Shown piece after piece: positions 9,909 through 48,923 of a DNA stretch of 64,000 nt. Position numbers and translations under genes: made by a program. The stretch is from Mesaphorura yosii (Eukaryota > Arthropoda > Collembola > Poduromorpha > Tullbergiidae). The stretch's first letter is position 1. The number at the start of each line of letters is the position of its first letter. The notes below the pieces were generated by a model. It saw nothing but the letters and a program-made list of their open reading frames with translations, made no database searches and had not been told where the DNA came from. The stretch covers positions 124,001 to 188,000 of the forward strand of contig WIXG01000069.1 in assembly GCA_009869945.1 (NCBI GenBank). The letters are read 5' to 3'.

Positions 9909-11189
9909 TTACATCTTTCCTATGTAAGTTTCCAATGCTGCCTGCAGTTCCTTCAATTGCTTCTCATTGTCAGCTGTGCCTGCTCGAATTGAATTCTGAA
10001 TCGATTTCACCTCGTTCAAATCTTGTACAACTTCCGAAGCTTTCTTGTGTAATTCACGTAACGAGTCTAGTCTTCTTGTTATCTCGGGCAATGCTTCTAA
10101 AGTGGAGGACGAAGATTCCAACAAATCGTATAGTGAGGAGAGCTGCAATAGATGCACAGTATTAATGAATCTGTCCTTGCTATTCAGGTAGTATCTAATA
10201 TAATTGTTTAATCACTACCACTCACCTTTAGCGTTCTTTCCAATTCCTGCACATCCAGTTTCTTTTCCGATATTTTGGTTACCTTTTGAAGAACTGAATT
10301 CAGCTTAGCCTCCAGTAGCTCAATGTGTGATGGTTCCAGTAAACTTAATTTGCTATGTAAAACTGTGATTGCACCAAGAACTGTACTGTTTTTCGGTTGA
10401 AGACCAATGATGCCCTTAAAAACGCATAAAACGGTTTTAGAATCTATAATACTGGAATCGTCAATCGTTGTAATCTTCAGTGGCTTCCGTCAGCTGTAAC
10501 TCACCAGAGGCTGTGTGCTGGTTCCCAGCACACTTTCCAGCTTTTGAAGCCTTGCTTCCAATTCGGTAACCTTTTGGGTTGGGTTCAAACTACTACCAGC
10601 GTATGCACTCTTCTTTCCTTGACTATCTATCGCACCAGTCAACTTTTCTTTAACTGCTTTACTACTGATTTGCACATTACGATGCGAGATGCTTTCCAAC
10701 TCCTTCTCAAGACCGAACAATTCCTTCAAGTCCACCTGTTCCTTTCCTTGTGGTGGGTTTTCTTTCAATTCCTTTTTCAATTCTTCGACTTCCAACTTGA
10801 GTCGCGCCAACTTCAGTGCTGGAGTTTCTTTTACCTCTTCTTCCCCCCAGACGTGGGATCTGTAACCATGATTCTGATCGAAATTCACAGCGCCGAGGCC
10901 ACCAACCATTTGTAGGCGGAATCTCTCATAGGCCGCTTCAATACTTATATGTGGGCGCTCGATACATTCATTGGGCTCCTCTTCGACAAAGTCGATGTAC
11001 TGATCGGATTCAGGCAAATCTTCAGTTTCATAAGTGTCGGGCTGATCACGGGCCTATGAAAGAACATTTGAATGATAATGTATCACGATGATGTACAGCA
11101 GATCGCTTCGTAACTTTATACTGACAGAAACCATTATCTTATTAGTGGCTTACAATCCCGGGAAGATTAGCGTACTTTGGATCCGACAT
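9909..11189 (-). CDS. DCTN2: Dynactin subunit 2 (dynamitin, p50)
   Basis: Four exons: 11189-11154, 11053-10505, 10414-10226, 10142-9909, giving about 335 residues. The first 12 codons, in their own exon, read MSDPKYANLPGI, the near-invariant dynamitin N-terminus. The next exon continues with ARDQPDTYETEDLPESDQ, the acidic stretch that follows in the family. The rest is largely coiled coil (LKLARLKLEVEELKKELKE; VTELEARLQKLESVLG), ending in KQLKELQAALETYIGKM. Dynamitin links the shoulder of dynactin to its Arp1 filament and is needed for dynein-driven transport; these roles are known for the family. The protein is somewhat shorter than the roughly 380-400 residues usual elsewhere. The gene converges on the colmedin-like gene. 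Confidence 0.95.
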
Positions 11190-19200: not shown

Positions 19201-22200
19201 AAGACACATTCGATGCGATGCCTTGCAGAAGGTGCGATGAGGAATGAGTGTTCGTATTATGTTTCTTGATAAGCGAAAGCAAAAAAAAACAAATATTTGT
19301 GCAGACAAACAAAAAGGATAAACGCTAGCTTTGTAAATGGTGAGGGCTCGACTGTCTCCATAAGAGATTTTCGTTATCGGGATCAAGAAATTCCTTCGTC
19401 GTCGTCGTATTAAGTGGACGTCAAGCCATGAAGTGCTTGATGAAGGTCCAAGAAGGTGAAAAGGGATAAGGATTAGATGACGAATGGAATGCAGCCGTCG
19501 TGGTTGGCATCGAAAGCGAACTGGAACCTTGTTCATTGTTCTTAATTGAGAACTTATGTGTCCAGTCTCTGAAGACAGACACTTATGGATTTACGCACTT
19601 AATCAATTCACCAACTCAGCATGTGAGCCATGGCGGAGGGAGCAAAATGATGCGTCACGTTAATCAAGAAAAAGTTCGTTCACTATTTCGAATAACACCG
19701 ATCCGAAAGTGTGTACATTCGTTTGGTGCTAATGAGGCTAATATATTGAAGATTTAGTCTTATTTCTTAATGGGAAAATGGCACTTACCAAAGCATTGCA
19801 GCCGATCCAAAGAAGTAAGTGAGCAGAAAGACGACGGCGCAAGACGAAGGGACCATTCCGCCGCCCGCTAGCAGCTCCTGCTCGGTCACCCGATCATAGA
19901 AACATGCAACAGGGATGGTGGAGCCAATAATTATGCCGATGCTGAAGAGGACCTGGCAGAGGGCAATGTACAGGATCGGACGCTCTGCGGTGCTGAGTTT
20001 CTGAAATAGTAAATAGAAAAACAAATAAACCATAAAAATTCTACACTGCAAGTTCGACACGGCGGCTCAGACTGGCGGACTCAAATCACATGCACATTAT
20101 TACGAGTCCATGCACAATTTTGGTAATGATTGAGTTCTTGTTTCTGTTGCTGCTGCTATTGTTGTGAAGAAAATTACATCTTGTTATCATCGCGCGGTTT
20201 TCTTTCATTATTTATGCACGTGCAACCGCAACAAGCTCCGTCTGTACAAATGAGCACAGCAAAGCGCGGCGAAGTGATGATGGACTACAAATCGGCACTT
20301 TTGAGGTTTTAAAAGTATTGCTTTAGATTTCCCCTGCCTTTTTTATCGGCTTGCAAAAAAAGTGCACGAGGATGGCTTGGTCGCTGGCTCGGCTCGGCTG
20401 ATTGAGTCTACGTCTGAACTGAATCTTTATCACGAATCAAGAAAACTAAAGCGATGCCTTCCTGATACGGATCAGTGCAGCCAGCCAAAGTCATGCCATG
20501 CCTATGCCATAATGGGTCAATTAAGTACTACAGCCGACACTTACCGGAGAGCAGATAGAGAGTGTGAGAGCGATGAGGGCTGCTGATAACGACAGACTTG
20601 CCCATAGCAGAATGTAGTTTCTTGCAAACATTCCGTCGCTTGGATCGAACAGCGAAACGACTCCATTCTGCCGAGCTTGACGAATCTCGTTCGTATTCGT
20701 ACTCGTACTCGTGCTTGCGACGGAATTTGTTGCTTCATGATAGCTGTTGAGTTCATGTTCCGCTGGACATCTTATCCAACATTCTCCCTTGCTCCAGACT
20801 TTTCTGGGACCGGAACACTGTCCTTGAGCTGGAGTTTTGACATTGGTGTCTTTTGAACTCGCAAGGTTCGACCCGGGAAGTTGTGGCAAATTGTTGATTG
20901 CATGCTGTTTCAGGATTGAGTTAACCTTCTCATTTGTGAAGTGGTGTTGGGAGAAGGGAAACGGCAGATCGAGGTCTGGTGTTAAGTGCGCACCACTGCC
21001 GCCATTGTTAACCGTGATTGGGCGACGTTGCAAGATTGGTGGGTCTCGTGTACTCGGCTTTGGCGCATAGTCACGATTGTTGTTTACACCAGGCGACGAA
21101 GTGAAGGTTGGCGCGTGATGTACACTGTTATGACCTCCGATCCCATTTCTCCCTGGATTAAGTACATAATGGTCTTGTTCCGTAGGTCCCGGGATGCACA
21201 TATGCTGGTGATTGTTTTCCGGGTGGAACTTGGAACAGTTTAGCGAAGGTGGCCAAGAAAAACCAAATTCTGTCAAGATGGGCTCACAGCTCCGGCGCAC
21301 AGACTCACAGAGTGAACGACAGGGACCTGCACAAGCAGCACAACAGTTTTCAAGTAAATATTCATGCCATCAAAGTAAATAAACTGCCAATCCATTTCTC
21401 CAGATGCGTTTCCGTAATTTTGCTTTGTGATGCCAAGAAAAACAACGCCTCAGAGAGCAGTTAATCGCACGTACCAATTGGCTCAGGAACTTTCTCGGTG
21501 CACATCGGCACGTACGCGGAGCACAGGAAGAGTTTCAAGTGCGCCGAGCATCCGTACTGAATAAGTGGAGTGAACGTTTGAAGCAGGGCGTCTGCATCGG
21601 CCTGGGCGTCGTGGCCAACCTGAAATACACACGATACAAATACTTCGGACAGGAGCCACACGAATCTGGCACTGCTAATTAAAATATTTCGGCTCCTAAT
21701 AACAAGCCAGCAGCCAGAGAAAACAACAATAGCAAACGTCATTAAGTAATTACGAAATAACTTACCAGGTTGGGCATTGTTGTCTGATTGTAGCCAACTT
21801 CCATGCACAGTCCTGGAACAGAAAAATAAGAATGCAAGCGTTCAGTGTTCATTCATGAATTGAATTCCTTTTTATTCGCTCTGCTCTGGTCTGGTGCTCG
21901 CATGAATAATTTAAAATGGAAGTGACTCGACTCTCAGTCGACAATTGCAAGGCGACCGCGCGAGAGAAGAGTCTCAGACGTATTCAAAAGATGATTAATA
22001 ACACTGGACAATCGTGCCGGAAAAGAAGTGATTATTTCATAATGATCTCTCGTACACTTAAGACACAATCTTCTCGTGGCTCGAAATGTACAGAAAAACA
22101 AATACCACGGAATCAGAATCAGTAAAAAGTCACGACCACGAGCTTATGGCTTACAAAGAGCTGATTATCAAGCTACTTAATTTACAAGGAGCCATTTTAT

Positions 22201-26940: not shown

Positions 26941-29900
26941 TTATCTCTCAAAAATCTGCAAGTGTAATTTCACAGTAATATCTCCGGACTCAATTTCATG
27001 TAAATGAAATGTTTTTGTCCATGGTGTCTTCCGATTTCTGGTTTCCTCGTGTATTGTGGAAATTCCAATCTCCATTCGGCCAAGGAACTCTGTAAATGGT
27101 CAAAGGATGCTTTTTGCTTTCTTGCACACAAATCCAGCAAGACCACATAATTTGGGCTTGACACTTACGATCAGGTGAGAACATATCCTTATCATACACG
27201 GTCAAGCATAAGATGTCTTCGTGGAGATCTTTGACAGAAAATTGCATCGAGTCATTCCACTTTGGATTCAACGTTCCCTTTATGACACTCGTTTTCTTGA
27301 CGTCGGATCCAAGACTTACTTCGCAGTACGGATCGCTTTTACCTGAGTAGAGCATTGCAAATTATGTCAGGTCCGCGTGGAACAAGTGATGACACAAGTG
27401 AAGACAAGCAAGCACAGTTAAGACAACACTTTATAGTGTAAATAGTAAATACCGTTGGGATCACGATTCGATAATCGAATGCCTTCAACAACTACTACAC
27501 GAATGTATCCAACGGGCTTCCTTCGGCGAACTACGAAAAATTAAAAGCATAAACAAGCCATGCATCGTTAACTTTATATAGTTGGGTGAAGAAATGAACG
27601 CAGCAAAATGTGTTTTCACATGGGATATAAGGCTATGTTAGCATTTAAGCGCGGTGTAGAATTGATTTACTACCTATCTGCGAACTGTGCTAGTTGAAGC
27701 AAAGGCCTACTCTCAGATTGCTAATTTAAATTGGCGCAGAACCACAACCATGCGATCATAAGGTCCAAATCAGTACAAAATCTTACCACACTTCGATCTA
27801 TCAAGAAGATTATTTGCTTCCAACACAGTTACAAGCAATCTGCCAACTGCGTTCGGTTTCTCTGAAAGTTGGAAAGCTTGGGTGATTGGGACAAACTAAA
27901 ATTCTAACCTAGACACTAGTCCTGTTCTAAAAGTAGTATCGCTTTCAATATCAGATTATGAATGGAATAGCGAATGGGTATGTTCAAATTTCGGATAAAA
28001 CTGTAATCACAATTTCAACTTACTCGATCGCTGACGCTGCAAATGCTGCTGCTCAACTTTGTGATAGTTTTTGGTCGCTGCCTGCAAATTCTTCAACCAA
28101 AGTTTCTTCTCTGAAATTCCCAAAGCACTTACGTACATCTGGTACGTTCTCTTCTGAATTCCAATGATGAAGTTCTCTGAAGTTTCGCTTTCCTCCTCGA
28201 CCGTAATCTCATTTAAAAATATTGGCTGGAAGAATGATAAGGCATGAATTGACAAATTTCAACTAACCGTGAGAAAATTTGACTAATAACTACGTAAATT
28301 ACCTTTCTATAAATTTTAAATTTCAGATTTTTATTTCTATCAAATGAAAACTGTGATTGATTCAGAGGCTTGTTAGGTTGAGCCAAAAGCAGAAAATCAT
28401 TAAACAGGAATCCAACAAGCTCTTTCCCGCTCTTCGTCTAACTCAGAACAAATAATGAAATTAGGGTTTCCATTTCCACCATAGAATTGTAACAAATGCA
28501 ATCTATTTAATACCTTTTTCAAAACTCCATAATGGATAAATTTCCCTGCATGAAGCATACAAGAATAAGAAAATGAGCTTTTGAGCGTCGGCAGTAAAAA
28601 TCAATTAGTGCAACTTACGTGGCCCTAATGCGTTTGTTAATGAGTTGAAAATTAAGCGCTCTTCTAAGCCTTCACAGCTTATATGAGTTTGCATCCATTC
28701 CAGCCTATCAGAGTTTTCTTTCTCCCGAACACCCTCATTAACCTGGGCACAAAGTTCTTCAGCTCGCAGCAAGGCTTCCTCCAAGTTCAAACGATCAGCG
28801 TGGTTTTCTGGAGTATGCTCAAGAATCTAGGCGAAACGTTACAAATTGTTTTCATAAAATTGGTGAAAGCAATTGTTTACTATTTGCAGTTCACCTTTTT
28901 AATAAGAAGTGGGTATTTCGTGATGCGTTGCATCGGCTTAATTAAAAAGGAACTCAACGGCAAATTCTGAGTCTTCGGATTTGCTTGACACTTTTTAGTG
29001 AATTCGCGAAACTCAACACTTTTCTCAGACTTCTGCTGGATGAGAGACGCCGACCTGTGAGCACCAAAAGCTTGATAAGAACTTCGACTTGCTAATCCTA
29101 AAGTCGCGTTGAAACTAGAATTACCTCAGCTGAGCACTGCAAAATCTAATGTAGGTCATCATGGCAGGCATCTAATTAAAGCAAATAGTAATAACTGAAC
29201 GCGTTTTCAGTTTGAGAGTCATATTTATCACGAGAAAAGTAGAAAAAAATGAATCGCATTACTTTTCCTTCTTTCTACTTTCATGACGTCGTCATTCATT
29301 TCAAAATTTGGCAGTCAATTTTAATGCGCTTAAAATCTACTCACATGTGTTATAAGAATATCTCCAATCATTAGGATGATTCCATTATCACAATGCTGTC
29401 CATTATCACAAAGAGTTTTCCTCACTGTGTCTGTAACCAATAAAATCCGATCCATTATTATGACAGGTCTCCTCTCTCTTGTTATGGTGCATTTGTAGAA
29501 AACAGCGACAAATTCATGTGCACATGTTTGGGACTTAAAATTAATTCAATTTGCGTGATCAGTTGAAGTGAACTAAACCGTGCCATGAATCGTCACTATG
29601 GACAAGTCTAAATCAGTAATTAAGCAAGGTACACTCGACAGCTACGTAACCCGTGCAGTGGAATCAAAGTCACAAAATGCTGCGAAGAAACCCGTAGCTG
29701 AGTCGTCCATGGTATGATACGACCTTCGCGTGTTTTGTTCATCCAAACGTTCTTCATTAAATTTGTTTGAACCATTTGTTTGTAGTTGCACAAATCTCCG
29801 AAGGTGAATGTCCACTACGTCAACCATGGAAATGGACGTTATTCATGCAAAAAATGTGTTCCTGCTTTTACTGTTGACAATATTACAATATTTACGAATT

Positions 29901-32900
29901 CATTGTCGTAAATACTACACCGAGTTAACTGAAGCTGCTCGCGTCATGAAGGATACTGTACCGTTAACGTTTTCATTATCATTCAATTAGTTCACGATTC
30001 AATGTCCGAATTCTAGGTACCTTCTATTACCAATACTGTTAATTACTTACTTACTACTTATATGTTATCTCATACTTACTTATTTGGCTTTGTTTTACTT
30101 ACGTTTTCTGACTGCAAACGCTTTGAGTAGCTTACTGCTGCAATCAATGAGATCTTCCCAGTTCACAAATATGGCGGTGAGTTCATCATGAGTTAGAAGA
30201 CCAGAGTTGTACAGCGGTACAATAAAGCACTACAGCAAACACATAGAAAATGGTTACATAAGATCACCCAAACTTTACGCAACATTCTTGCAATAATGAC
30301 GGTTGATTTACTTCTTTCACAATGTTCATATCGACCATGTAATTTTCTTCCGTGCCGATCAGTTCACTGATGCTTTCTTGCCTTTGCATTTCTATCGGGT
30401 CAGCAGTTGCATTGGAATGAGCTGAGTTAGAGAATTTAGCTGCCGAAGGAGCAGGAAGTTCGCCCATCGCTTCGAACTCCGCATGTTTGTAGGACTGATG
30501 CCCAAACCCATTCTTATCGTTACTGCCGCCACCCATGCTGCCATTTCCGACGAAGCCGCCATCCCAATCATCGTCATCATTGTCGAATCCACCACCTGAG
30601 TTGACTACTTCATTCGCCTCCCAGTTGGAGTTTTGAAACGAGATATAAGAAGAGGAAGCTGCATAAAGAAGGCATCCATACGATAACAACACATTGTAAA
30701 TTTATTGCAAATGTTAATTCAACTAGTTCCATTTCCTTTCCTCATCACTACCCTCTACAAAGTATAGTTGATCAACCAGAAAATCAACAATACAACAATT
30801 ATCGCTTTTGATTGTAGGAATGATTGATTATTTTCAGGTCTTGTAAAATGAGAATATTTGTAAAACTATTGCATTCGACTTGGACAACTTCTAAAAAGTA
30901 AAAATCGTTGGCTGGAAATTAATTAATGCTTCAAATCTAGATTCAGACTGAGCGATTCTTTGAATATTGACATTAAAGCATTGCAAGGCTTTGCATTGTT
31001 ATAGTGCCACAGCCGAAATCTCAAAATAGGTGAAACTGACAATCGCATAGGTGAGGAAAATGCTGAGACATTTACGCAAGCAACGTGTACATGTAGTTGA
31101 CAAATAGACACTAGGAAGGAGCACAAAACACATAAGTGGCATGGCTTGCAGGGTTTCCAAAATGAACACCGAGAAAATATCAAAACGTTTCTTAACTAAT
31201 TAGTAAGGCAGAAACATTATTATTAAGTTCATGCTGCTAAATAGTAACAGAGAAGCACAGCTTTTATTGAAGTTCGTAGCAAAGCTTCCTGTTCACTACG
31301 GAAAATACTCCACTACGAATATTGTACTACGAGTAATATGGCTCTCGTGCTATTTCAAGAGACCCCACCTACCATGTTACAGAACAATTGCTAAACAAAA
31401 TTAAATCACTCGCCTTCTTTTGCATAATGTGTCCGTGATAAGTTTAGTTACCGATATCTCTTAATATAAAAACAACTGCTCAAAGAGCTAAAGGGCGCAG
31501 GGACATTATAAGGTCGAAATAAAAAGAATAAAAATTAAAGCACCCAATCATAGCATATTACAATTCTCATTCTGATTGATACGAAGTGACTTCATTCGAC
31601 GAATCTACTCTTACGGGTTTTTATTTGCTCTTACAATTCTCCTCTTTCAAACCTCTTCAACTACATAAATTACTAAAGTCGTGTCTAACATTCTACAATT
31701 CTAAACTTGACTAAAATGGAAGTTCTTATTCGTCTTAAAGACTGATTGAGATTCTTGTTTACTTCGCTTATGTAAAGAATTCAGTTGTAAGACAATTTCA
31801 TGATTCATTCAATTATTGTTATATTAAATTATTGTTACAGATTATGATTAATTCATCGGTTGAAAGGACTAGATTGATCGATCATCATTTTCTTACTCGT
31901 GCAGTAGAAAACAGTCATGTCTTTAACTAAGTTCTGCCTTGTAACATGGATGGTGAGACTCACTCTTCCAAAGATTTCATTCAAGATCAACTTAGTGACT
32001 CAGATCTCCTAAACAGAAAGAAAAGACAGGACAGAATCAGAATTTACATTCAGAAACGTTTTTCTAACAAACTGACAAAGCACCAGCGCAAGTATAGCAA
32101 AGCTAGTGAAGCCATAAGTGGTAGGATGACTGGCTACAACTAATTTGAGTCAAGCAGAAAGCGCAAAGGAACTGCCATTGAACCTCAAAGCAACTTAAAT
32201 ATGGGAAACCCGCACAATTAGGGACATGGAAGAATCTACGAAGCACAGTCGAACTCCTTCCCTTCGACGTTATTTTTTTAATGTACGACCACCTGCTCAT
32301 GCAATTCAGGTCTCAGATCTGTCTCAGTCGACTACGGTTCGCAAAAATTAAAATTAAAAGTTAGGTCTACGAATCCTAGCCTGTTTAATGGAAGGAAAAC
32401 TCTAGCTCTGTTATAAACGCTTAGAGCTTAAAGCAAGAACTTACATTGATTGTCTGCAGAATGTGATAAAGGCTGAACGTAGTTAACAGGGAAAAGTCCA
32501 ATTGCGCTTCCAAGCTGGCCTCTCCACCAATCAGGTTCATCCTTCGAAAGAATGACGATTACGTCATCTTTCACAAAAGTTAGTTCATCCGAATTTTGAG
32601 CAGTGTATGGATACAGAGCGATCATTTGTTCTAAAATTACAATAAAACGCAGTTGAAACATAGGAACATTTGTCCTACCCAGAACATAGTTGGAGTCGTG
32701 GACATAGTTGGAATTTGTCAATCAACTCACCTTTCGTTTCTGCATAAATCGGCGCAACTGTTACAGGCATTTCGATTTCGTCGAAAGGAATTGGAGTTGT
32801 GCGAGACGATGATTGTCTTGATCCACCACCAGGACCCAAAATTTTTACGTACGATCCGGGAAACCATCCAATTTCTCTCTTCTTTCCCTTAGCCTAATCA

Positions 32901-35900
32901 GAAAGATTCAAGCACAACTTATTCCTGACCAAACATATTACTGTGTCGAAAATGGGTCTAAAATACGAATTCCTAGAGAAAATGATTCTGATTCTAAATC
33001 AATGTGGTATTACAGAGTTTGCTAGTTAAAATTTTAAAGGACGGCAAGTAAATGAATTAAAGGAAGGAGACATCAAACACGTTGCAAAGGTCAACGAATG
33101 AAAATTATGTAGATTAGAAACTGAGAAGGAAACGGAAATGTGGCTTCTCCTCTTGAAAAGAGCCATGATTAGAAGAAGTTGATGTACTTGGCACTGGAGA
33201 ATTACATTACGATAGATAAGGATATCACCTGAAGTTCGCCTTCCCACCAACCAGAAGCGTTTTTCTTTCTAACAGTAATGAGTTGTCCCTTTGTTAATGT
33301 TAGTTGACCTTCCGCGTTTCCAGCATAATTAGCAAGCACGGTTCCAATCTCATATTTCTTAGTTTTTCCAGTGGCTTTGGGTGATTTAGGAGGGGCCTGC
33401 TTTGTAAATCCACTGATTTCTCTTTTTAGATCTGCTTCCTCTTCAGGCTCTAATTCTGTTTTGCTTGGTTCAAAAGCTAAACTTCTCTCGAACGCGGTCA
33501 TTGCTGTAGACGTGTACGTGTTATTTGCCTCTTGTTGTACTGTCTTAGTTTCGCTTTCAATCTCAGCAGCAACTTCACTATTTTTCGCGACGTAATTAGC
33601 TGGAAATATGCCGCTTCGATCTCCTATAGACCCTGTCCACCACTCCCCTTCGCTGTGTGTAACAAATATTGATTCTCCAGCTTCAAAAGGCAAGTCGTCC
33701 GGTTCATGGGATTCGTAAGGATAAAGGGCGACATAATACTCTGAAAAGAATCAAAAGTATTTGTTGCTAGTCTTTTAGTACTTAAAAGTGTCACGATACA
33801 GCATTTTACGATTTTACCTCCTCCGGCCTCGGTAGTGCCGTAATTATTCGCAACAGCTGGCGGGCTAGATACAGCTGCTGTCGTGTCACTGCAAGTGATA
33901 AAATGATATTATTATCTTCAGTACTAGCCGAGCAGAAGCAACTACAGTGGATCTGTTAAGAATTAGAGTTGACTTACGGAATGTGATCATCGGGAAGAAC
34001 TTCCACAAAAGATTCAGGAAACCAGCCGGATCGACCGTTTAGCATGCCAGACAACCAGCCTGGGTCGGGAACAATATCCTCGCTTTTCTAAACGTACAAT
34101 AACGAGCATGTAGAAATTGCACAGGTGCATGCAAATTAGCCTTGAAATCTCCCGGACATACTTGAATTATTTCGCCTGCTGCAAAGGAGAGTTCGTCGGG
34201 ATTTCGCGAATCAAAGTCGAATAGTGCCCGATAGAAAACGACAGTGCTTTCGGGAGGACCTTTCGGCTCTCTTGGGCTCGCTGCTCCCCACGCTGCGTTA
34301 TAGTCGAATTCAGCATGATGTTTCTTCCGCAGTACAACAAGCTGATCCCGTTTGTCGCGATACTCTTCGTAAATAGTCTTGCAGCCCTCTACAAGTGTCG
34401 ACAATGAACTCCGCAATTCTGATAGTTCTGATTTAGCCGCGTTGTGGTCAGCTTGTTTTTTCTCAAACTGAAACAATAATAATATTGTGTAAAATATAGA
34501 ATTTCAAATTTTTAAAATGATTATAGACGCACCTCTTCTTTCACATTTTGCTGTTTCTCTCTTAGTTGGTTTAAGTTTATATGCTTCACGTCACTTTCGG
34601 AGGCAAGTTTTTCCAGCCGAACCTTTTCCTGGGCAGCGTGCAACATCCTGTTGTTTTGGTCTTTGAGTTGAGCTTTCAGCATGGCCATGTCATTCATGAA
34701 AGTATCTCGTTTTGTTCTCATTCCATCAATTTCAGACTTTACGGAGGACACGCCTTTTCGTGTTTCTGTGATTTTGTTCGACAATTCCTTCACTTTGTCA
34801 GTCTATAAAAATGATGGACTCGAGTATATTTCTCGACATTATTAGCGGTAACAGAATAGAAATCAGTGCTTACCAATTGCGATACTTCAAGACCCAAACC
34901 GTTATTGACGCCCTTCAGTCTTAAAACTTCATCTTGCTCTTTTTGCCTTCGGGCCAATAGTTCGTTCCTTTTTGTTTCTTCCATCTCCGCCTGTCTTTGC
35001 CGTTCCATTTCTTTTCTAGCAGCCTCCTTTTGCTCTTCAGCTTTTCTCAGTTCCTCCAACCGACGCCCCTCCATTTCTCTCTGAGTGGCGAGTTGGCGTT
35101 CAATTTCTTCTTGCTTTCTCCTTTCAATTTCCAGCCTCTGTTTTTCACGTTTTTCGAATTCTTCGCGCTCTTTTCGCTCTCTCTCTTCGCGCTCCCGGTT
35201 CGCCATGTCCTCCAAAAGTTTCCTTCGTCTGTCCAACTCAGCCTGTCCCTTGTCGTAATTTTGCTTCCTTTTGTCCTCAAACGATGTTCCGCCTATTGGA
35301 ATAAAAGTTCAGTGAGTAATTTCAAGTTCCATATTAATGTACCAAGTAACGAGCCTTTACCAGGTGATAGCAGAGGCTCATCGAAGGTCGGAGTATTTGA
35401 TCCGGTATTGTGGCCACTGGCCGCAACTGAACCTGTCATGGAGGCGCTTTTCATTGACATTCTTCTACTTCCACTACGATATGAGGGTGGTATTAAATCT
35501 GCTGGCAACTTTGGAGGTAGTCGTCCGGTCTGAAAAACATATTAATTCAGTGACTTCTGGGAAATCGGGAGTCTACCGGGAGAGAACCAGGTTTCTTTTT
35601 TAACTGAACTTACCTGCTTAGCTACATCGCAGAGATGTAAAGAGAGAATAAATTCCTCGCACGAAAGCCTACCATCTGAGTCGAGGTCCGAGAGAGCCCA
35701 CACTGTCGCTAAGATTTGTTGTGGCAGTCCAGTTGCCATTAAAATATTCCGAGCTTGAACTCCTGACAAATAGCCGGACTTAGATCTATCATTTTGATTG
35801 AACATTTGGGTGTACTTGAGTCTTGATTGATTTGGAACGGCCCACTCCATTAGTGGGGAACTCCTGAAATCAATAGAACCCCTTCTTAAACTTCGCGTAA

Positions 35901-36797
35901 TTGACGAAGCACGGCATGGGACGAGATTTTATGAACTTACACTGCGACCGCGTCTTGACTGGTAATGGATGCCGATCTACTCAACTGCTGAACAGAAGAT
36001 TGAGACTGTGACGATCTCATCACTGAAAACAGGAAGGAAAAGGTTCAGCAAGAGGGGTTAAGCAGAGAACAGCTGAAAATGTTAGTGATTAGTACCAGGC
36101 TGTTGTGCAGTCTGAACGTATCCCAAAGGAAGCGAAGAAGGTGGCATAGCTGTCATTGGCATTGCAGGGACCATTCCAGGCATGGGCACGCCCATAGCGA
36201 TAGCATTCGGAGCGGAATAAGCAACAGGCTGCGCTGCCATAACTAGTGGAGGCGAAGTAATACCTGATGGCTGAGCCATGACGCCGACATTCATTCCACT
36301 TGACACCGCCATCATCGAATTAGGAATCTGACCAGGCATCATCATGACTGGTTGTATCATTGGCTGCGGTTGTGACGCGAGCATTTGTTGAGAAGAGGAT
36401 GGCGTGAGAACAGGTGTCGTTTGCCCGGTGCCCGCGAGAACCATTCTGAGTGAAGGCGGCAGTGTCTGAGGTACCTCGAAACCTTTCAACTTCATGGTAA
36501 TCAGCTTGCAAGCCACACTGAACTCATTGATGTCCATTTTTCCATCGCAGTTGGCATCTGCTAAACTCCTGAAAGCAGTAAAGCAAAATTCGCGAATGTA
36601 GAAACTTAATATTGAGGCCTACTTTATAAAGTTCGGAAAGTTTACCATATTTGGCCCAAGACTAATGGAGGCAGTTGAGACTGGAGTAAGAACCCCTTCG
36701 CCTGGTCGCCAGTGACAAACCCGCCAACTGGGTTTAATGACTTAAATTGTTCAATGTGTCTTGCCCGCTCGGCAGGAGGTATTGCCCATGCATCCAT
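26941..36797 (-). CDS. ITSN: Intersectin: EH x2, coiled coil, SH3 x4, DH-PH, C2
   Basis: Exons in coding order: 36797-36646, 36568-36096, 36022-35941, 35863-35614, 35529-35361, 35292-34874, 34802-34533, 34467-34162, 34087-33978, 33888-33818, 33740-33229, 32893-32731, 32630-32445, 30658-30312, 30229-30103, 29430-29345, 29171-29125, 29054-28895, 28826-28619, 28545-28514, 28437-28303, 28225-28024, then 27861-27787 and/or 27530-27453, 27342-27169, 27089-26941. Every junction keeps frame: about 1,635 residues. EH1 ([19 protein letters not shown]), EH2 ([14 protein letters not shown]), a long Arg/Glu coiled coil, four SH3 domains ([54 protein letters not shown]), DH ([17 protein letters not shown]), PH ([17 protein letters not shown]) and C2 ([15 protein letters not shown], ending KLHLQIFER). 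Intersectins scaffold clathrin endocytosis, and the long form activates Cdc42 through DH-PH. The SH3B-type domain of vertebrate intersectin appears absent. Confidence 0.96.
27453..27861 (-). other. Duplicated, phase-matched exon pair at the start of the intersectin C2 domain
   Basis: Exon A is 27861-27787 (75 bp) and exon B is 27530-27453 (78 bp). Both have GT-AG borders and both are phase 1 at each end. A encodes [20 protein letters not shown] and then RSKC; B encodes [20 protein letters not shown] and then NRDPN. Each can join the next exon (GKSDPYCEV) and each supplies the same first strand and loop of C2. They therefore look like alternative, probably mutually exclusive, exons. Including both also keeps frame but would duplicate the strand. 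Confidence 0.75.
29598..29911 (+). CDS. Small two-exon antisense gene within an intersectin intron (hypothetical, 79 aa)
   Basis: Exon 1 (29598-29711, ATG) and exon 2 (29786-29911, TAA) are joined by a 74-bp GT-AG intron with a pyrimidine-rich acceptor (tttgtttgtag). The join keeps frame and gives 79 residues. It begins [20 protein letters not shown]; the second exon has [10 protein letters not shown], a CxxC pair that could start a zinc-binding fold. KQGTLDSYV resembles a PCNA-interacting (PIP) box but lacks the second aromatic residue. It is wholly inside the intersectin intron between exons 30229-30103 and 29430-29345, on the opposite strand. I do not recognise the family. It could be a small cellular gene, a fragment of a transposon-derived BED/hAT-like protein, or chance. 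Confidence 0.4.
30659..32444 (-). other. Large intersectin intron (SH3 region to DH region)
   Basis: This 1.8-kb intron separates the last SH3 domain from the acidic linker before DH, the position where the short and long forms of vertebrate intersectin diverge. A plus-strand frame at 31946-32143 and a short frame ending near 31939 occur here but have no support as genes. A short-form 3' end could lie here, but I cannot show one. Confidence 0.35.
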
Positions 36798-37652
36798 GCT
36801 TAAAAGTCTTCTTTTGTGGAATAGGATTCTAAAAGTATACCCCAATAGCAATAGACCGCCTGGAACTGGAACCAAGTGTGAAAGAGGTGACGCGAATCAT
36901 AGAAGAGCCGAGATGCGGATCATCTGTGATAGGACAGTGATTTCGGTTTAAGTATATTTTAGAAGAAGTTCAAGGAGAGATCGTCAGTATTCCTCGTTTC
37001 AAATTACCTGGAGCTCCGAAATCTTGAATTTTTATAAATGAGACACGGACGCCCTCCTTGAACCTGACACAACACAATTAACAATAGGAAACAACACCTA
37101 ACAATACAAAACAGGAACAAGAAAAGCACGCCGATTACAAACTCTTAATTTTACGTGCTAAACGGAACCAGACCCGGCCGATGCACATTCTCTACGCTGA
37201 TCACACATAAAAATCAACATTACATAACCGAATCAATTACACCTCAAGATTATCACACCTCAAAAAATATTTTTCTTGATTGAAAAAGTGGTGGTGGTGG
37301 TGGTAGCTGAACTGAAATAAGGGCGGATACACAAGCACATTACATACTCATATACATGATTCGCACTCGCGTTCGGAAAGTGGAAATAGAAATGAGTCGA
37401 TAAAAGTGCACAGAGAAAGCCTACACTGCAAGCATGACGTTAACACCGAAAACAAGGATACACCGTTTGTATTGACAATCACATGCATGAGACGATAGCA
37501 CCCATTCGAATTCGGGTAAAGTGAAAGTCCAGCCACATTCACATCACATCTGATGATGAAATCTCCTAGAGTTTTATATCAACCCTGAATTTTACATTTA
37601 GCACAATCAACTACCTGTGACTCGTGCCTGAGATAGGTTAAGGTTAGCTGAA
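36798..37652. promoter_or_regulatory. Shared head-to-head promoter region of intersectin and CLPB
   Basis: The intersectin start (minus) and the CLPB start (plus) point away from each other across 855 bases. That interval must hold both 5' UTRs and promoters. No TATA element stands out. A (GGT)n run lies at about 37289-37304. A non-coding first exon of intersectin may lie here, since the coding ATG sits just after an acceptor-like TTTTAAG. Confidence 0.45.
37289..37304 (+). repeat. Simple (GGT)n repeat
   Basis: About five tandem GGT units in the region between intersectin and CLPB. Low-complexity DNA with no evident role. Confidence 0.6.
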
Positions 37653-40307
37653 ATGTCATTGAAGTACGGCATTTGTAAGTATTGTTCGCGATTCCGGAAG
37701 CAGTTGACTCCTCCGATTGCTTCCCTACTACGAGAACATTCTACTTCTACTGGACCTAGTCCACTTGTTACTTCGGCTCGGCTTAGATCAACAATGAAGC
37801 CCGCATCAGTCACTTTACGCCACACCGCAGAAGTAATCAATAATAAAGTAATCATCAAGTATGGACGAGGTGACACCGTTTTACGAACTATGTGCATGTT
37901 AACGTTGGCCGAGTCTTGGACTTGTAAAGCCCTCGAACCAATTCCAGCAATGCTGTTGCAAAAACACAAGCAATATGAATGGTGGTATAATTGGAGGCAG
38001 TGGAGATCGAAACGAAAGCAAAATCAAGATAGACAAAATCGCTGGAAATGGAGCAACATGATACCATTCGGAATCACGGGACTGTTGGGAACCACTGGAT
38101 ATAGTAGCACGCTGTCCGAAAAAGATAGTAAGTCCAACTATAATTCATTTGAGTATATGCACATATTAACGCTTTTCTATTTTCTCCACTCAGAAAATCG
38201 GGTATTTCTAGCAGCAAAAGAAGGACGAGACGATGAACTGATACGAATTCTTAACTTGACCAAGTTTGACATCAATTGCCGTCATAAGTATGGTTGGACT
38301 CTTCTTCAAGTTGCAGCAGCCAATAAAAGAACATCAACTGTCAAGTTACTCTTGGATCTAGGCGCAGATCCAAATTTGGGAGACGACTTTAGCAATGCCC
38401 TGCAAGTGGCCGAAACCTTGAAAGCCCATTCTCTCGATGGTAATTGTATTAACACGGTTTACGAAATTGCAATCCTGAAATGTATTGTTTTTTTTTCTAA
38501 TTTAGTACAAATAACAAGAGAAGATGAATTTTGCGACCGCTTGAACAGTCGAACCAACTTCAAGGGAACCACTGCATTACATTATGCTTGCCTGTCCAAC
38601 GATCAAGAGTCAATGAAGCTCTTGTTGACATATGGTGCAAGCAAGAATATGGCTAATTTTGCGGGCCATCTTCCATATCAGTATGCCACAAGATCAGGTC
38701 AACACCTACTAAACACGTACCAGCCTCCTCCAAACCCGGTAAATTAGCGTTTTACCACAAAGCAAATCAACTTCTTCAAGCATGCAAAGCAATCTTCTTC
38801 ATATTGAGTATTTAACTCGTCCGCTTTTGTTACTTTTAGAAAATCACCGAAGATAATGAAAAGAGAGCGCTGGAACGGAAAAAGATGGAAGCTGCACGGC
38901 GAAGAAAGTTTACATTTGAGCAACATGCCAAACAGCATATCATCGGTCAAGAGAGTGCCATTGCTACAGTTGGAGCTGCGATTCGAAGGAAACAGGCTGG
39001 TTGGTGCGATGATGACCATCCTTTGGTGTTTCTATTCCTTGGCTCCAGTGGTATTGGAAAAACTGAGCTCGCCAAACAAATTGCAAAGTATTTACACAAC
39101 GATGCCCCGAATTCATTTATTCGTATTGACATGTCGGAGTACATGGAGAAACACGAGGTACACCAAGTTGGCGATGGAATTGAAATACCAATATAGAGTT
39201 CTATGAATTTGATTTTATATTTGGCTAGGTTGCCAAGTTCATAGGCTCTCCTCCTGGGTACATTGGACATGAGCAAGGCGGTCAGTTAACCAAGATGCTT
39301 GCGAAATTTAAGAATCCAGTGGTCCTTTTTGACGAAATTGAAAAGGCTCACCCTGACATGATTCCAATCCTGCTGCAGCTATTTGACGAAGTGTGTACTA
39401 ACATTTTTTCAATTTTATGGTACTTGGAATCTCTATTTGAAACTCTTTTAATGATTCTCAGGGTCGAATCACGGATGGCCGAGGCAAAACAATTCACTGC
39501 AAAGACGCCATATTTATCATGACATCGAATCTGGCCAGTGATGAAATTGCGGATCACGCCTTGCAATTGCGAGAAGAAGCGGAAGCAATTCTTAATACTC
39601 CTTCTGAAGAGAAAGGTACAAGTTAACTTCCAATATATTTAAAAAATTAGAAGGTTAGGGCCTCTTGCCTTTAATCCAATCCTACTCGATTATTTGTAGT
39701 TACGGCAAATCAATTCTCATGCGATGATGTTTCAATCTCAAGAAACTTTAAAGAAAATGTGGTCAGACGAATATTGAAGCGACATTTCGGAAGAGACGAA
39801 TTTCTTGGAAGAATCAACGAGTTTGTCTACTTTGTCCCGTTCACTAGTCCAGAGTTGCGGTCGCTGGTCACGAAAGAGCTGGAACATTGGAAAGCGAAAG
39901 CCAAGACGAGGCATGGAATTGACCTCACGGTAAGCTTGTCATATCTTGGTCCATTAAGGGCTTTTTCTGAGTAACTTAACTTTGAGAATTTTAACCTACA
40001 GTGGGACGAGAATGTTCTGGATGCTTTAATTACTGGATACAATGTGTACTATGGTGCTCGCTCAATCAAACACGAAGTCGAGCGGCGAGTGCTGAATCCA
40101 CTGGCCACCTTATACGACACAATCATTGATGATAACCAAAGCCCCAAAATCCACATTTCGGCAATCGAAGACACCGGCGCAAAGGAGTCATCGACCGACA
40201 AAACGTATATTCTCAATCTTAATGTGATCGGATCTTCAAATAGTAACGGTACAATTTTAAACGCAATTGGCTCGCTATTTGGCAATAAAGAAAAGCAAGA
40301 TATTTAA
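37653..40307 (+). CDS. CLPB: Mitochondrial AAA+ disaggregase CLPB (Skd3)
   Basis: Eight exons: 37653-38127, 38194-38439, 38506-38738, 38840-39157, 39229-39390, 39462-39615, 39700-39929, 40002-40307; 707 residues, the length of human CLPB. The basic, Ser/Thr-rich N-terminus fits a mitochondrial presequence. Ankyrin repeats follow ([28 protein letters not shown]). The single AAA+ domain has Walker [13 protein letters not shown], Walker [12 protein letters not shown], the substrate-binding pore loop GYIGHE, sensor region IFIMTSN, and the C-terminal [16 protein letters not shown] with sensor-2 arginine. The family resolubilises proteins of the mitochondrial intermembrane space. The 66-bp introns 38128-38193 and 38440-38505 have no in-frame stop, so the first three exons read through as one frame. 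Convergent with the hexokinase gene. Confidence 0.97.
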
Positions 40308-40496: not shown

Positions 40497-42175
40497 CTAC
40501 AAACGCTGGGCAATCGCCGCTACAAGTGCTGCTCCTTTTCCACTTCCGTCTTCGACGTGTCGTAATGAAAACTATGAGGGACAGCGTGGAAATCAGTTTC
40601 CATTCTATCGAAGCAATTTAAATTCGAGCAATTCGAGTTAAGTTCAGAGTCTCGCTCACCTTTCGTTCCGGAGCATACTCACTAATGTATTTGTTCATCA
40701 ACGTCTCCAGTCTTGGATGGAATTGAAACAGCGACCCGTCGACGCCGATGGTCACGTCAGGCTTGGCCATCCGATCAAGGAGATATGCAAGACCTGCAGC
40801 GACACATTGAAATTAATTAGTTTGACGCAGATAAAACAAAACTACGTGTACATGCGCACTTACAAATAGACACAAGCTTCGCCGCCCGGTTCGTCACGGT
40901 GTAGCAAATGTACTTTACGATGATCATGTCGTCCGTTCCGAAATCTAGCTGCAGCTCGTCCAGAATTACCCTTGTGTTGTCATACGTGCTTGCTAGGCTA
41001 TCCCTGCAATGTTTACAAATTACATGAAAGGCTCGTGTGCTAATCAAATTACGTTTGTGTTGATTCGAGTGTGCACTTACGCTTCGATCATGGACAAATG
41101 TCGTGCAGTAAATTCTCCGTGCTTCGTCAGCTTCTCTGACGCACGCCCATCGAACAAAATTCCGTTCTGCACAAACTTCAAGAGAATGACACGCACGATT
41201 TCACCAATGTACTTGCCCGAAATGTACTTCTCGAATGTGAAAGATTTCGGCAGTAGCGAGTTTTGATCGACTGCCCTGTCGTACTCCGTCTTGATAAAGT
41301 CCAGCACTCCATTGTCACCAAAGGCGCCGGACTCAATGTCTATAATCACCTCGGAAGAGGGATTTGGTGGTTTGATGGCGCCCCATTTGTGAACTCGACC
41401 AGCTTTTTCAATGTAGCACACATTGCTGCCTGTACCCAGGATCAGGCCGATGGCGCAGTGTTTGTCGGAGAATGCTCCTTGAATGAGCGTCCCTGTCGTG
41501 TCATTGAGAATTGCAACAACTTCGACGTTCAGGTCTCCTCGTTTGCGAATGGCAGCATTGAGCATTTTAACGGCATCCTGTAACAAAAGCGTAATTAAGC
41601 ATGGCACAATCACAAATTGCAATGCGAGCGAAAGTGGTTAACATGAAAGTTGTATGACTGGAGCGTGAAATGACAAAGGGCGGGGGAAGTCCTACCTGTC
41701 CAACAACTCCTGGGCAGTTGAAAGTTTTAGTCCACGACACAAGAATTCCGGACTTGATGCTCTTCTGATCCATCGGGAAAGAGAAGGTGAAGCCCAGCGT
41801 CAGCCTTTTGGTGGCCAGATTGTGCTCCTGCAGGAACTGATGAATGCAGCTGGCCAGGAAGTCAAACAGAGCCACTCCGGGACCCAAGCGCATTGCTTCG
41901 GGTACGTGAAAGAACTTGACCTCCTGATGAAGTAGCTTTCCCTTCTCCAGTTTCAGAAATAACATTCGGAAATTTGTACCGCCCAGGTCCAAGGCCAAGA
42001 ATTCTCCGTCTTCCGTTCCGTCGGGCAATTGAGTGATGAAAGTGTTCGCCATTTCAAGCGAAGACTTCTTGGATGGGTTCAACGCAAGGCCCAAGTCCAT
42101 TTCTTCCTCAAACAGCGTCCGGATCTTTTGGATGGTGGAGTCGGACAAAATCAGATCTTCGAGAAGCTTCTTCAC
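40497..42175 (-). CDS. Hexokinase, single domain (first coding exon not placed)
   Basis: Five exons: 42175-41696, 41577-41081, 41003-40864, 40793-40660, 40571-40497; 441 residues plus a short N-terminus. It catalyses ATP-dependent phosphorylation of hexoses, the entry step of glycolysis. Signatures: phosphate-binding LALDLGGTNFRM, the hexokinase pattern LGFTFSFPMDQKSIKSG followed by WTKTF, catalytic NDTTGTL, LILGTGSNVCYI, and the adenosine motif EDGSGKGAAL. The size matches 50-kDa invertebrate hexokinases. The first listed exon opens with a valine codon straight after a CAG acceptor, so a short upstream exon must supply the ATG. A phase-0 candidate at 44224-44213 (encoding MAGL, followed by GTAAGC) fits the frame, but it sits just below a TATA-like sequence and is uncertain. 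Confidence 0.93.
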
Positions 42176-45100
42176 CTGTACGGAGTAAAGAGCAAGAACG
42201 GTGAGTTGAAGTCACATAGCACGATGCCATTAAGCGAGCTGTTAATTCAATGTCAATGTCAACCCGTCACTCGTGCCAGCATCCAACAGCAACACACCTC
42301 ATCACTTTTGATGTGCCGGATGACGCACTTTGCTTAGTCCCTAGAATTCGGTATGCAAAACGGCGACACAGCACGGGCAGGAGGCTTCGCCTTCGCTTGA
42401 CGCCAACCACGCCGAACCACACACGCACACATCACAGGCAGTGCGAAAGTTCAGGAACAAACTCAGAAGCCAAAACCGGCTTCACTTATTAGCCAATACC
42501 CATGCATCTTTTGTGCAGCATGTATACAAAATATCCATTCATGTTATCAGCAGTCTTTTGTGGGTTCTGTGAATAATTTTGGCACAATACAAAGTTGGGA
42601 TACAAAGTTCATCCTAAATAATAACAACGAGTACATCAAAGCTAACATGAATGCTTTTAGGTCGAGGCTATGATTGATTTCACCATACTGCCTGGGCGTG
42701 AACAACTTTCCCCGGTTTTCCTTTCCGCCATGCGAGCAATCAATAAGCACCGTGCCGTGAAAATGTGCCCGGATTTGACAAAGGATCTGCGTACGTCAAA
42801 TTCTATTTTGACATTTACAAAAGGTATTTGTATTTAGTCTAAAGCATTCGTTTTCGCTGAGTGAATCTTCCACAACGTATGTCATGTGCAAAATGTGATA
42901 AATGAGCTTGAACTTGAAACCGTCTTTTCCCTGTTACTCAATCAGGAATTTGAGACGCGTGATTGTCAGTCTCATTTTTCCACCTATTTGCCGATTGAAT
43001 TCAAAATTCTACCCTAACTTTTGCAACAAATTTTGTGCCCCGACGGACAAATACACGTACCAAATTACATTCGATTGGTTTGTGGCTTCAGTATATAAGT
43101 CCCACAATACAGATTTCTGTCTTTTACTTGTAGCGAATATAATCGCGATTGTAAACTTGACCATCACTCTTCTTCTGCTGTGTGCTGCCTGTTGCTTTTT
43201 CCTATAAATACCGCTGTCATATCATGGCATGTCTAAGATCATTAACGACCTTCGTCTACGAACGGAGAGCAAAGATCATCTTCATGTCTGAGTGCGTCTA
43301 GCGCTCGTTCAATTCCTTATCTCAATCCTAATAAGCTGAGAGCAGCGTGGGAGCAAGTCTGATTCCGCGCTAACGCTGCGTCACGAACCTGTTCCGCCTT
43401 TCTCCGGGCGATGTGACACAAGAACTGGTTGTGCACTCCTTTCTCGTGTTTCGCTGTTCCATTAAGAGTCGCACAAGCGACGGCGACCGCTGTCTTCTTA
43501 CTATTTGCGTTGCTATTGAACGACATCCCTGATGCTCGCGGCACTAATTCGTGAAATCTGTGAAACTTATAATTGCTTCTGTTTTTTGTAATTTTTCAGT
43601 ACACTGGGAGAATCTAGTATTGACTGAACTGGGACAGCGAATAATAATCACATCTTTTTACTGCGTCTTTATTTGAACGGGCACCAGGACTAAGTCTTCT
43701 TGGAACTTATAACAGAACAGAAAAATGTGAACCGCGACCTTGTGGAGTTGCAAATGCTCCAGCCTCCAACTGCAGTTCGTACGTTTACCCGCACTCACGC
43801 TCGTCTGAATGAGAACTAAAAGAAGAAGTCGGTTCCGATGCCACGTTTATGGAACCAAGCTCCTCGCATTCAAGGCAAGGCGAAAGCAATAGCCCAGTGT
43901 GCAATCCGCGCGATGTGTTGATATTCGCGCATGTTTGCGGGTTCAATATTATTATTATGATATCAAAGAAGGACTTGTAAAAGCCTTTCCTTCCCTAATT
44001 CAATTGTGAATACGCGCAAGTTCTTTACACATTTGCTTAGCTTTACGCTTTTACGTCATACATTCATTAGCACTCACTTCGTCCTGCAGCCGGTTTCAAC
44101 ACCCATCCTACGATTGCGTCCCATGGTAAACAGATGTAATAACCTCATAAATGAACGTTTGTCTTCTATAGCCCATTTATTGTCGTATCTGGAAGTCTAG
44201 ACTAATGCTTACGAGGCCGGCCATGTACCTTTATATCCTTAGACGATCAGCTCAATGAGTACAATAAAGAAGTGAACCGCAAACCAAAACGCAGCCAAAT
44301 AAAATAGCAAATGGATATCAGGTTTTTTGTCCTGCTTCGTGAGGACAATAATGATTGGTCATGCTGACTTGTGCAGTGGTCATTAAATTGGAGTCCTGAG
44401 CATATTCAATTGCGATGACCCGAAACACATAATATATAAACATATACCCTGGTTTGCGTACGCGTGCTAATCCGCGAAACAACGAAAGTTTTCTAAGTTC
44501 TTGGAGCACACTTTGTCGAGATCAGACCTATTCGGGTTACTCCTGCTCATAACTTATTCAGACCCATTATCGTCGCGCTCCTTCTTTATCGTCGTCAGTT
44601 GTCTTGTCGTTGTCAGTCAATCTCAATCACTTTCTGCATTGCTCAAATTCCACTGCTACAAACCACGAAGCAGCACGTAGCCAAGATTAACTCATTGCAA
44701 TTATGCTCCAAAGTTAAACGAGTGTTGTGAAAGTCAAATTGACTAACGAATACAAGACCGATGGACAAGTGTCCATGCAATGTAAGCGTGGACATGCTCT
44801 TTTACTCTTACGACTTTACCTGAGCCACCTTCCAAATTTCTTCCACTCCATTCAAAATGTTGATAGTTGAGTGGTCAACCTTCATTGTAAAATGCGGGCA
44901 AGATACAAGACGACGAAGTAAAGGAACACGGCTGGACGGTTAACTAAGTAATTGCTACGTTGCACGGGCACGTGGAATAAATTGGCGTCGGACGTGATCT
45001 TGAATTCGAAATGGCAATGATTGAGGGTAAAATTAGAAATCAGCAGTTTGGAATCCGTCAGAATTTATGATGAAACTGGAGTATGAAGGTACGACCCACA

Positions 45101-46451: not shown

Positions 46452-48923
46452 TCACTGTTTCTTGGAATAAAAGTCATATAGTCCATACTCCCTAAGCAAA
46501 TCTTCGTATTTCTGTACACTAGCTTCTAACGAAGAGTCTTCCAATTTGATTAGATCCTCTTCTCCTCCCAGTTTATCGGGAATCGTCGACGCGTGCGAAG
46601 AGGGATTACTTATTGCTGTTGCCGTTACTGGCGGTGGCATCGGCGTGGGCACGGCATTTATTGTTTTTGTGCTCTTGAAGTCGTTCACGACGTGGTTCCA
46701 GGAATCGTTCCAGCCAGGATTCATTAAACCTGGTCTCAGGGAATTGGACTTTGTCGAGTTCGAGGTTGCGGATGTTTTTTCACTTGCGGCTTTGTTTACA
46801 TCAGCTTCATAAGCACTGTAGTTATTGTTATTTTTGTACTCTGACTTCGTTCGAGGAAGCGTAGCTGCTGCAACAGGAGAGGTTATTCCTGGTTCATTGA
46901 ATCGAATCAGATCGGGCGTAATTGGCATCGGGTTGCTAAAAATATGCAAAGTATCAAGTAGTAATAAATACAAGCAATCCGCCTGGTAGCAGAGACACAA
47001 AAGTTTCACACTTCACTCACGAAATGCTCAGCGCGGACACGGTACCATTCATGTGCGACCTGTGCAGCTTTCCAGTAGAACACGAAACTTTCTCCCGTTG
47101 CAGTATATTCTTTCTCCCACATGTGTTTCCACACGTCGCTGTCACCGAGTTAATTTCTTGACAGAATATGTCATCACTTCGATTTCGACCAGCTTTGATG
47201 TTTGAAATCAATTCCTCTACAAATTGTTGGAACATTTGCGAATGTAGCAGTTTCGTCTTTATATATTTGCGATGTGAAGATTTAGCGAGCTGAATAAAAC
47301 TGTGCGAATAAACACAAAGAGCGTAAATACGAAGGAGGACTACCGTAAAAATTAATGCTTGGTCTCACCTGTCATTGTCAAGCTTAAGCTGATTCTTGTC
47401 AATCGTGAGCGCATTCTCAACGTGCCCCATCAGTCTTACGAACACATGGAGAAATACTTTGGCGAGTCCGTCTGCACCGATCTTCTTCACAATTTTCAAG
47501 TTTGTCTTGAGAAATGTGAAAATGTCATTCGGCAATTCAAGCATATCTTCAGGGAATGGTGAAGTAACTGTGTTTGCATCCGCGTCCACGCAGATGACGT
47601 CATTCAGATTGGTCTGGGAGAGTTTCCTCGTGAGTATTCCGTTCCTCCAAGTCTGTACGGGAACGCCAACGACAATTGGACACGGCGTCTCCAAATAATC
47701 GGACAATGAATGTGGGAGAACTGGAATCAAGACATGCTGCCAGCACATGGGATACATCAAAATATTGCATGCCATCACAATCGATGAGAGCCGCGACAGT
47801 TTCGCCGAAGTGATAAATATTCGACGTTCTGCAAGTAGCGAAGCGAACAATGTAATCATCGAATCAATGCTGAGCGAGTTGTAGAATTCAGCAAGACATC
47901 TCTGAAAAGAAATCAAACCAGAAAGGTAATTACTTGTTTGCTTTGTGATGCGAATACTTTTTCTACTTAATAATTAAGCGTGCTTGCACAGACGAACTTT
48001 CTCAAGGACACTTGTGCCAAGTTCATGCTTCGGAAGTTGGAATTTGGAACATTAATTCGGAACGAACCTTCGATTTGACACGCAGTGCTAAATGTCACGA
48101 CCCCAGGCCTGTGAGCCGAGGACGTGTGTGTACTCAACGAAACCTCTTCACCGTACTCATAAAACTTACATTATCAAGTGTAGAAGGAAGTTGATTTGTG
48201 TTTGGACAAGTTGTAACAAATGGTGGTAATGATTGTTTGCTTTCCACTGACATGACATAGTTCTCTAACGCAGACTCGGCTACTGAACTGTGTTGCAGGT
48301 TTCGTAAGAATGACTCATGCACATCGTCCCAGTTCCTCAGACAAACACAGTAGTTGAGAATCTTGTAGAATATTGCGTTCCAATACGGCATGCTGGAGAT
48401 TATCATTATACATTCATGACGGCCATTTTCACCGGTGGCACCTGGACCGGAGGTTGCAGGTTGCTGGCGACAGTAGCCAAATGTCCACTCACCGCCACCG
48501 TTTGTAAGTACGAAGCTGAAGTTTTCGATCGTTGTGCTGCAAAAGAACAGGGTGACGTTTATAATTTTCTCATAGTGAGGTAAAATGTACGAGTATTTAC
48601 TGCAGACTGCCAGACTGTTAAGTTTAAGAGCTTACATTGTTTCATCAATTGGGAACGCAAAGTGTTTGACTCGCTCGACCAAATCTTTGTCCTGTTCGTT
48701 AATTGGAGGATACAAATATTTTATCGTCGGGGCTTCACTGACAAATTGGCCAGCAGGCCGGCACTTTTGTTCGAAGATGATGTAATGGTCGTAAATGTGT
48801 CGGATTGACTTCTTGCACCTAGATGAATCAATTTGGGGCAATTCCATGTTTAATTCATTCTAGTGAATGAGGGCTTTGGCCTCAATGAGAGAACTGCGGA
48901 ACTTACCGAATTCGGGTTCCCAT
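46452..48923 (-). CDS. DENND1: DENN domain protein 1 (connecdenn), Rab35 exchange factor
   Basis: Six exons: 48923-48907, 48818-48636, 48536-48170, 47901-47369, 47299-47021, 46935-46452; 620 residues. The start MGTRIR, split by an intron after 17 bases, resembles the MGSRI start of vertebrate DENND1 proteins. The uDENN region holds KHFAFPIDE; the central DENN core has MITLFASLLAERRIFITSAK, ILMYPMCWQHVLIPVLPH and LETPCPIVVGVP; dDENN has MFQQFVEELISNIKAG. The C-terminal tail of about 160 residues is low-complexity (Ser/Asn/Pro) and ends in a short charged helix-like segment. Family members activate Rab35 at clathrin-coated vesicles and endosomes and bind clathrin and AP-2 through their tails. 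The tail is much shorter than in vertebrates; I did not find a clear clathrin box. Confidence 0.9.

Follow-up and report, generated by a model that had tools for sequence, protein, structure and literature searches.

A candidate pair of alternative exons for strand 1 and loop 1 of the C2 domain in a long-form intersectin gene

Results

A long-form intersectin gene

The window analysed here, a 64,000-nucleotide stretch of the Mesaphorura yosii genome with a G+C content of 42.6%, carries spliced genes, one of which encodes the domains of an intersectin on the reverse strand (Table 1). Pfam searches detected the relevant domain in eight of the ten pieces of this gene, and no Pfam match was found for the pieces at 32678-32893 and 30267-30701. 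Among solved structures, those of intersectin-2 and intersectin-1 were among the best matches of a roughly joined SH3 query. The top match of the C2 domain was human Intersectin 2 (3jzy), both when the domain was assembled with the exon called A below (E = 3.4e-37) and when it was assembled with exon B (E = 5.5e-37). As judged from its sequence, the gene codes for a long-form intersectin, with EH, SH3, DH, PH and C2 domains found together with a coiled coil recognized by eye.

According to one review, invertebrate intersectin consists of EH domains, a coiled coil and SH3 domains only (PMC3753573). In a table of another review, the GEF region is absent from the intersectins of Caenorhabditis elegans and Drosophila and present in those of Nasonia, Apis, Acyrthosiphon and Hydra (PMC3645719). 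Because of these last four cases, the existence of the long form outside vertebrates is already known.

Table 1. Features of the intersectin locus, with positions in the window
Feature	Positions	Strand	Remarks
Intersectin gene	~36.9 kb to 26.9 kb	-	EH, SH3, DH, PH, C2
Rest of intersectin visible in the window	28226..36896	-	EH, coiled coil (by eye), SH3, DH (RhoGEF); partial exon model
EH piece	36645-36896	-	Pfam
EH piece	36085-36618	-	Pfam, 20.0 bits, below the cut-off of 22
EH piece	35545-35928	-	Pfam
SH3 domains	between 34503 and 32431	-	Pfam; three pieces, four stretches
RhoGEF piece	28883-29125	-	Pfam
PH_13 piece	28007-28258	-	Pfam
Upstream exon, end of PH domain	28024..28225	-	ends in phase 1 at CGA/GTAAGT
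Exon A	27787..27861	-	75 nt, phase 1/1; codes for C2 strand 1 plus loop 1, lacks the canonical aspartate
A-B intron	27531..27786	-	256 nt; length would allow A-B splicing
GCAUG	27749..27753	-	33 nt into the intron past the exon A donor
UGCAUG (RBFOX-type motif)	27559..27564	-	in the AG-free zone, 28 nt from the intron end, adjoins TTAAC
Exon B	27453..27530	-	78 nt, phase 1/1; candidate second version of strand 1 plus loop 1, Asp where PKC-alpha has D187
Exon C	27169..27342	-	common to both forms, GKSDPYCEV... to ...FSPD; second loop-1 Asp and loop-3 Asps
Last exon	26941..27089	-	C2 end and stop codon

Two exons for the same C2 segment

The first-pass annotation of this DNA had proposed that two adjacent exons, A and B, are mutually exclusive versions of the first strand of the C2 domain. 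The observation behind this proposal is confirmed, as the coordinates, lengths, phases and peptides of both exons were all as described. Exon A is bordered by the acceptor TTCAG/AG and the donor TG/GTAAGA, and exon B by the acceptor CGTAG/TT and the donor CG/GTATTT. The B-C intron spans 110 nt, and exon C is preceded by CTCAG. Either exon joins cleanly to the GKSDPYCEV start of exon C, as had been claimed. The combinations A-C, B-C and A-B-C and the direct skip to C are all four in frame, and the reading frame therefore forces no exclusivity.

That the two exons encode the same C2 segment in different sequence is borne out by the near-equal scores of the domain with A or with B, namely 101.6 and 100.5 bits against the Pfam C2 model and 129.8 and 129.0 bits in the alignment with the ITSN2 domain. 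The Pfam score was 87.6 bits with neither exon, in a construct that carried one extra glycine, and 104.2 bits with both, the highest of all constructs. In this double form, the C2 model aligns from exon B on (residues 33-128), leaving the A strand as an unused linker. The earlier description of the segment as the first C2 strand is correct as far as strand 1 is concerned but too narrow, since in the alignment the swapped piece also takes in most of loop 1.

We scored the splice sites with a matrix derived from this gene itself, for which 12 donors and 12 acceptors were picked by eye. With this small matrix, exon A has a donor score of 5.0 and an acceptor score of 7.5, and the other sites of the gene, scored by leave-one-out, range from 2.7 to 11.3 for donors and from 0.7 to 9.7 for acceptors. 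The donor of exon B (5.25) scores above 4 of the 12 sites of the gene and its acceptor (2.5) above 2 of the 12. The sites had been called good; they do lie within the range of this gene, but the B donor is ordinary and the B acceptor weak, as 12.1% of the AG dinucleotides across the window score at least as high. Such a weak acceptor fits a regulated exon and also a poor one. A second AG is found 15 nt 5' of the exon A acceptor (27862-27876, reverse strand), whose use would add five residues in frame.

Resemblance of exons A and B

The peptides of exons A and B agree at 7 of 25 aligned residues, and their DNA at 29 of 75 bases. We compared this resemblance with chance in two ways. In the six frames of the window, 56,649 stop-free windows of 18 residues were scored against the core of exon A. 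Besides A itself, two reached a score of at least 27, namely B, with exactly 27, and an unrelated stretch with 33. The second test used open pseudo-exons bounded by AG and GT, 60-99 nt long and in 1/1 phase, of which the whole window has 1,993, overlapping ones being counted separately. In end-anchored alignments with ITSN2, exon B scored 30 and was beaten solely by three overlapping variants of A (35, 35 and 31); the best unrelated pseudo-exon scored 21, nine below B. Free local alignment with ITSN2 gave 46 for the exon A peptide and 31 for that of exon B, and one unrelated locus, represented by three overlapping pseudo-exons, scored 32. These comparisons make it unlikely that exon B is open by chance.

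As DNA, A and B with their flanks show no clear likeness (35 of 300 shuffles as good), so that the case for their homology is built on the protein pattern, the phase and the position of the exons. A duplication, if there was one, would be old. The strand pattern, phase and place that they have in common would be best explained by selection on both exons.

In the A-B intron, the reverse-strand segment 27687-27667 matches the start of exon A without gaps at 17 of 21 positions (1 of 200 shuffles as good) and contains an in-frame TAG recognized by eye; it may be a decayed exon A fragment and thus the relic of a third exon copy. Gapped tests of this possibility were weaker (10 of 300 shuffles as good in a strict version and 27 of 300 in a loose one), and the intron 5' of exon A matched the loose result with 25 of 300. 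Searches for relatives in viral contigs and prokaryote genome contigs, where none were expected, returned 6 and 37 pattern matches, respectively, none of which was confirmed.

Calcium-ligand positions

Calcium-binding C2 domains hold the ion with five aspartate ligands, which in PKC-alpha are D187, D193, D246, D248 and D254. We aligned the C2 domain with those of ITSN2, PKC-alpha and synaptotagmin-1. The D187 position, the first loop-1 calcium ligand, is occupied by Asp in B, by Ser in A and by Lys in ITSN2. In the D193 column, exon C provides an Asp where ITSN2 has Asn, and ITSN2 is thus changed at both loop-1 aspartate positions. The loop-3 ligands D246 and D248 are conserved, and Gln takes the place of D254, with an Asp one residue earlier. 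The five-aspartate set is consequently incomplete in both forms, with four of five ligands in B and three of five in A. Loop 1 reads DPNGKSDPY in the B form, identical at 8 of 9 positions to DPNGLSDPY of PKC-alpha, and SKCGKSDPY in the A form. Exon B also encodes seven basic residues (Lys or Arg), including those of its IRRRK start, versus five in A.

Discussion

Probable alternative use of the two exons

The anatomy of the exon pair is confirmed; its interpretation is predicted from DNA and is partly supported. In the account that we favour, the exon encoding strand 1 and the calcium-binding loop 1 in the C2 domain of long intersectin would have been duplicated in tandem long ago to give A and B, and the pre-mRNA would use A or B, one at a time. 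We consider it likely that A and B are a real alternative exon pair, and probable that they stem from an old tandem duplication whose copies are used alternatively; exclusive use of the two exons is also probable. Such exclusivity is not imposed by the anatomy, since all combinations are in frame and 256 nt is no obvious obstacle to splicing of the A-B intron. Both exons might normally be included, A lengthening the PH-C2 linker and B completing the C2 domain, or they might be two independent cassette exons. The open frame of A-B-C, the usable sites at both ends of the A-B intron and the top Pfam score of the double form are all in keeping with joint inclusion. Nevertheless, double inclusion would idle the A strand as a linker and therefore leaves unexplained the full strand-1 pattern of A, which a mere linker does not need, nor does it sit well with A outscoring B against ITSN2 in the free peptide alignment. 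We thus regard joint inclusion or independent cassettes as unlikely. Quite improbable, in our view, is that one of the exons, B or else A, is a duplicate that is degenerating or seldom used, or an unused open frame. The weak acceptor of B, the unclear likeness of A and B as DNA and the possible further fragment of exon A in the same intron point in that direction, but in spite of its low base identity with A, B still has its phase, an intact dinucleotide at each splice site, a frame open over all 78 bases and the C2 pattern, and a neutral duplicate of such age would not be expected to retain these features.

If A and B are indeed used alternatively, the choice between them may toggle a calcium ligand, Asp in B and Ser in A, a possibility that we place somewhat short of an even chance. 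The earlier suggestion that the swap would alter calcium binding can in this way be narrowed to a single residue. The B form should then respond more strongly to calcium and acidic lipids than the A form, because it has four rather than three of the five ligands and more basic residues, and the A form should be calcium-weak or calcium-independent. The absent D254 is a real weakness of this calcium-switch reading. Alternative use could also tune the binding of lipids or partners with no effect of calcium, and the Gln at the D254 position, which leaves the ligand set incomplete with either exon, and the additional basic residues of B would agree with that. Against it stand the close match of the B loop to that of PKC-alpha and the second loop-1 aspartate kept by exon C and absent from ITSN2; we see such calcium-free tuning as possible though not favoured. 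One step further, splicing would provide, through the exon with the first loop-1 aspartate, a calcium-responsive and a calcium-insensitive DH-PH-C2 scaffold and so set the coupling of calcium to endocytosis or exocytosis, which we consider rather unlikely.

One review suggests that calcium binding by the intersectin C2 domain may be key to the roles of the protein in exocytosis and endocytosis (PMC3753573). If our reading is true, intersectin, an endocytic GEF scaffold, would join the proteins in which splicing selects between versions of a C2 domain, and this gene would offer a natural one-gene pair for asking how important it is that the C2 domain of intersectin senses calcium.

Possible control of exon choice

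The 3' splice site of exon B has an AG-free zone of 39 nt with candidate branch points at 27568 (the A of TTAAC), 27550 and 27541. The A-B intron carries a GCAUG near its start and a UGCAUG within this zone. Among 127,488 sliding 256-nt segments, 0.5% have a GCAUG within 60 nt of each end, in a test chosen post hoc, and 4.1% contain two GCAUG anywhere. Over the whole window, both motifs are near chance frequency, with 59 TGCATG versus 49 expected (11 of 100 shuffles with as many) and 157 GCATG versus 145 expected (18 of 100). An RBFOX protein bound to UGCAUG over the branch-point region of B would repress B, and the GCAUG 3' of exon A would support A.

In C. elegans egl-15, RBFOX proteins bind a UGCAUG upstream of exon 5B and repress this exon via that site (PMC3585155). 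The 5A/5B pair resembles the present one in having UGCAUG in the intron 5' of the B exon and, by this analogy, RBFOX is predicted to favour A. The role of RBFOX in egl-15 was shown genetically (PMC3585155), unlike here, where there is the motif alone. We take the motifs as a hint and consider RBFOX control of the A/B choice improbable. Competing base-pairing between introns, of the docking and selector type, was rejected as an explanation, as no pairing among the three introns clearly exceeded shuffled sequence (28, 21 and 40 of 200 shuffles as good). A distant branch point like that of OGDH was rejected as well, because under the AG-exclusion rule the short AG-free zone before B speaks against it.

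Relation to known exon pairs

Mutually exclusive exons that alter C2 domains have been described in invertebrate Syt1, Syt34 and Esyt2, with repeated origin (Craxton 2010, PMC2823689). The intersectin pair resembles them in that duplicated exons would recode a portion of an invertebrate C2 domain. It differs in the part concerned, which is strand 1 and loop 1 rather than the central part of C2B as in Syt1 or the first C2 domain as in arthropod Esyt2 (PMC2823689), and in that the gene codes for an endocytic scaffold with a GEF domain. In OGDH, the choice between exons 4a and 4b switches calcium sensitivity, as we propose for intersectin; unlike intersectin, OGDH is a mitochondrial enzyme, and exclusivity is enforced by distant branch points (PMC7969005). 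An exon switch has also been described for coq-2 in helminths (PMC7434440).

Vertebrate intersectin-L belongs to the same family and has the same domain order, and its minor variants are described as altering the EH, SH3 and DH domains; the passages on splice variants in the review that describes them name no C2 variant (PMC3645719). Among the matches listed in the open-licence literature, where 'intersectin' also matches 'intersecting', no title or beginning of an abstract reports an exon pair in the intersectin C2 domain. As for two articles on intersectin splicing, the words 'mutually exclusive' appear once in the available text of PMC9519902, in a reference on another gene, and are absent from that of PMC6547669. 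C2 exon swaps are known in other genes, and what would be new here is the candidate C2 exon pair in intersectin together with a specific calcium-ligand prediction.

Other genes of the window

Neither an Rfam family at the gathering threshold nor a tRNA was found in the window. Outside the intersectin gene, Pfam screening of 10 ORFs identified Kunitz (502-1188, reverse), olfactomedin-like (9013-9348, forward), dynamitin (10493-11053, reverse), Fz (20524-21369 and 21464-21841, reverse), hexokinase (41570-42211, reverse) and DENN (47368-47973, reverse) sequences, as well as an AAA ATPase piece (38840-39193, forward) preceded by ankyrin-like text recognized by eye. The ORFs 50681-51154 (reverse) and 53667-54326 (forward), for which there was no Pfam match, look alike by eye (CNACKE/CSACQE, YKGLGR...GLN) and perhaps represent a dispersed repeat or a mobile-element gene.
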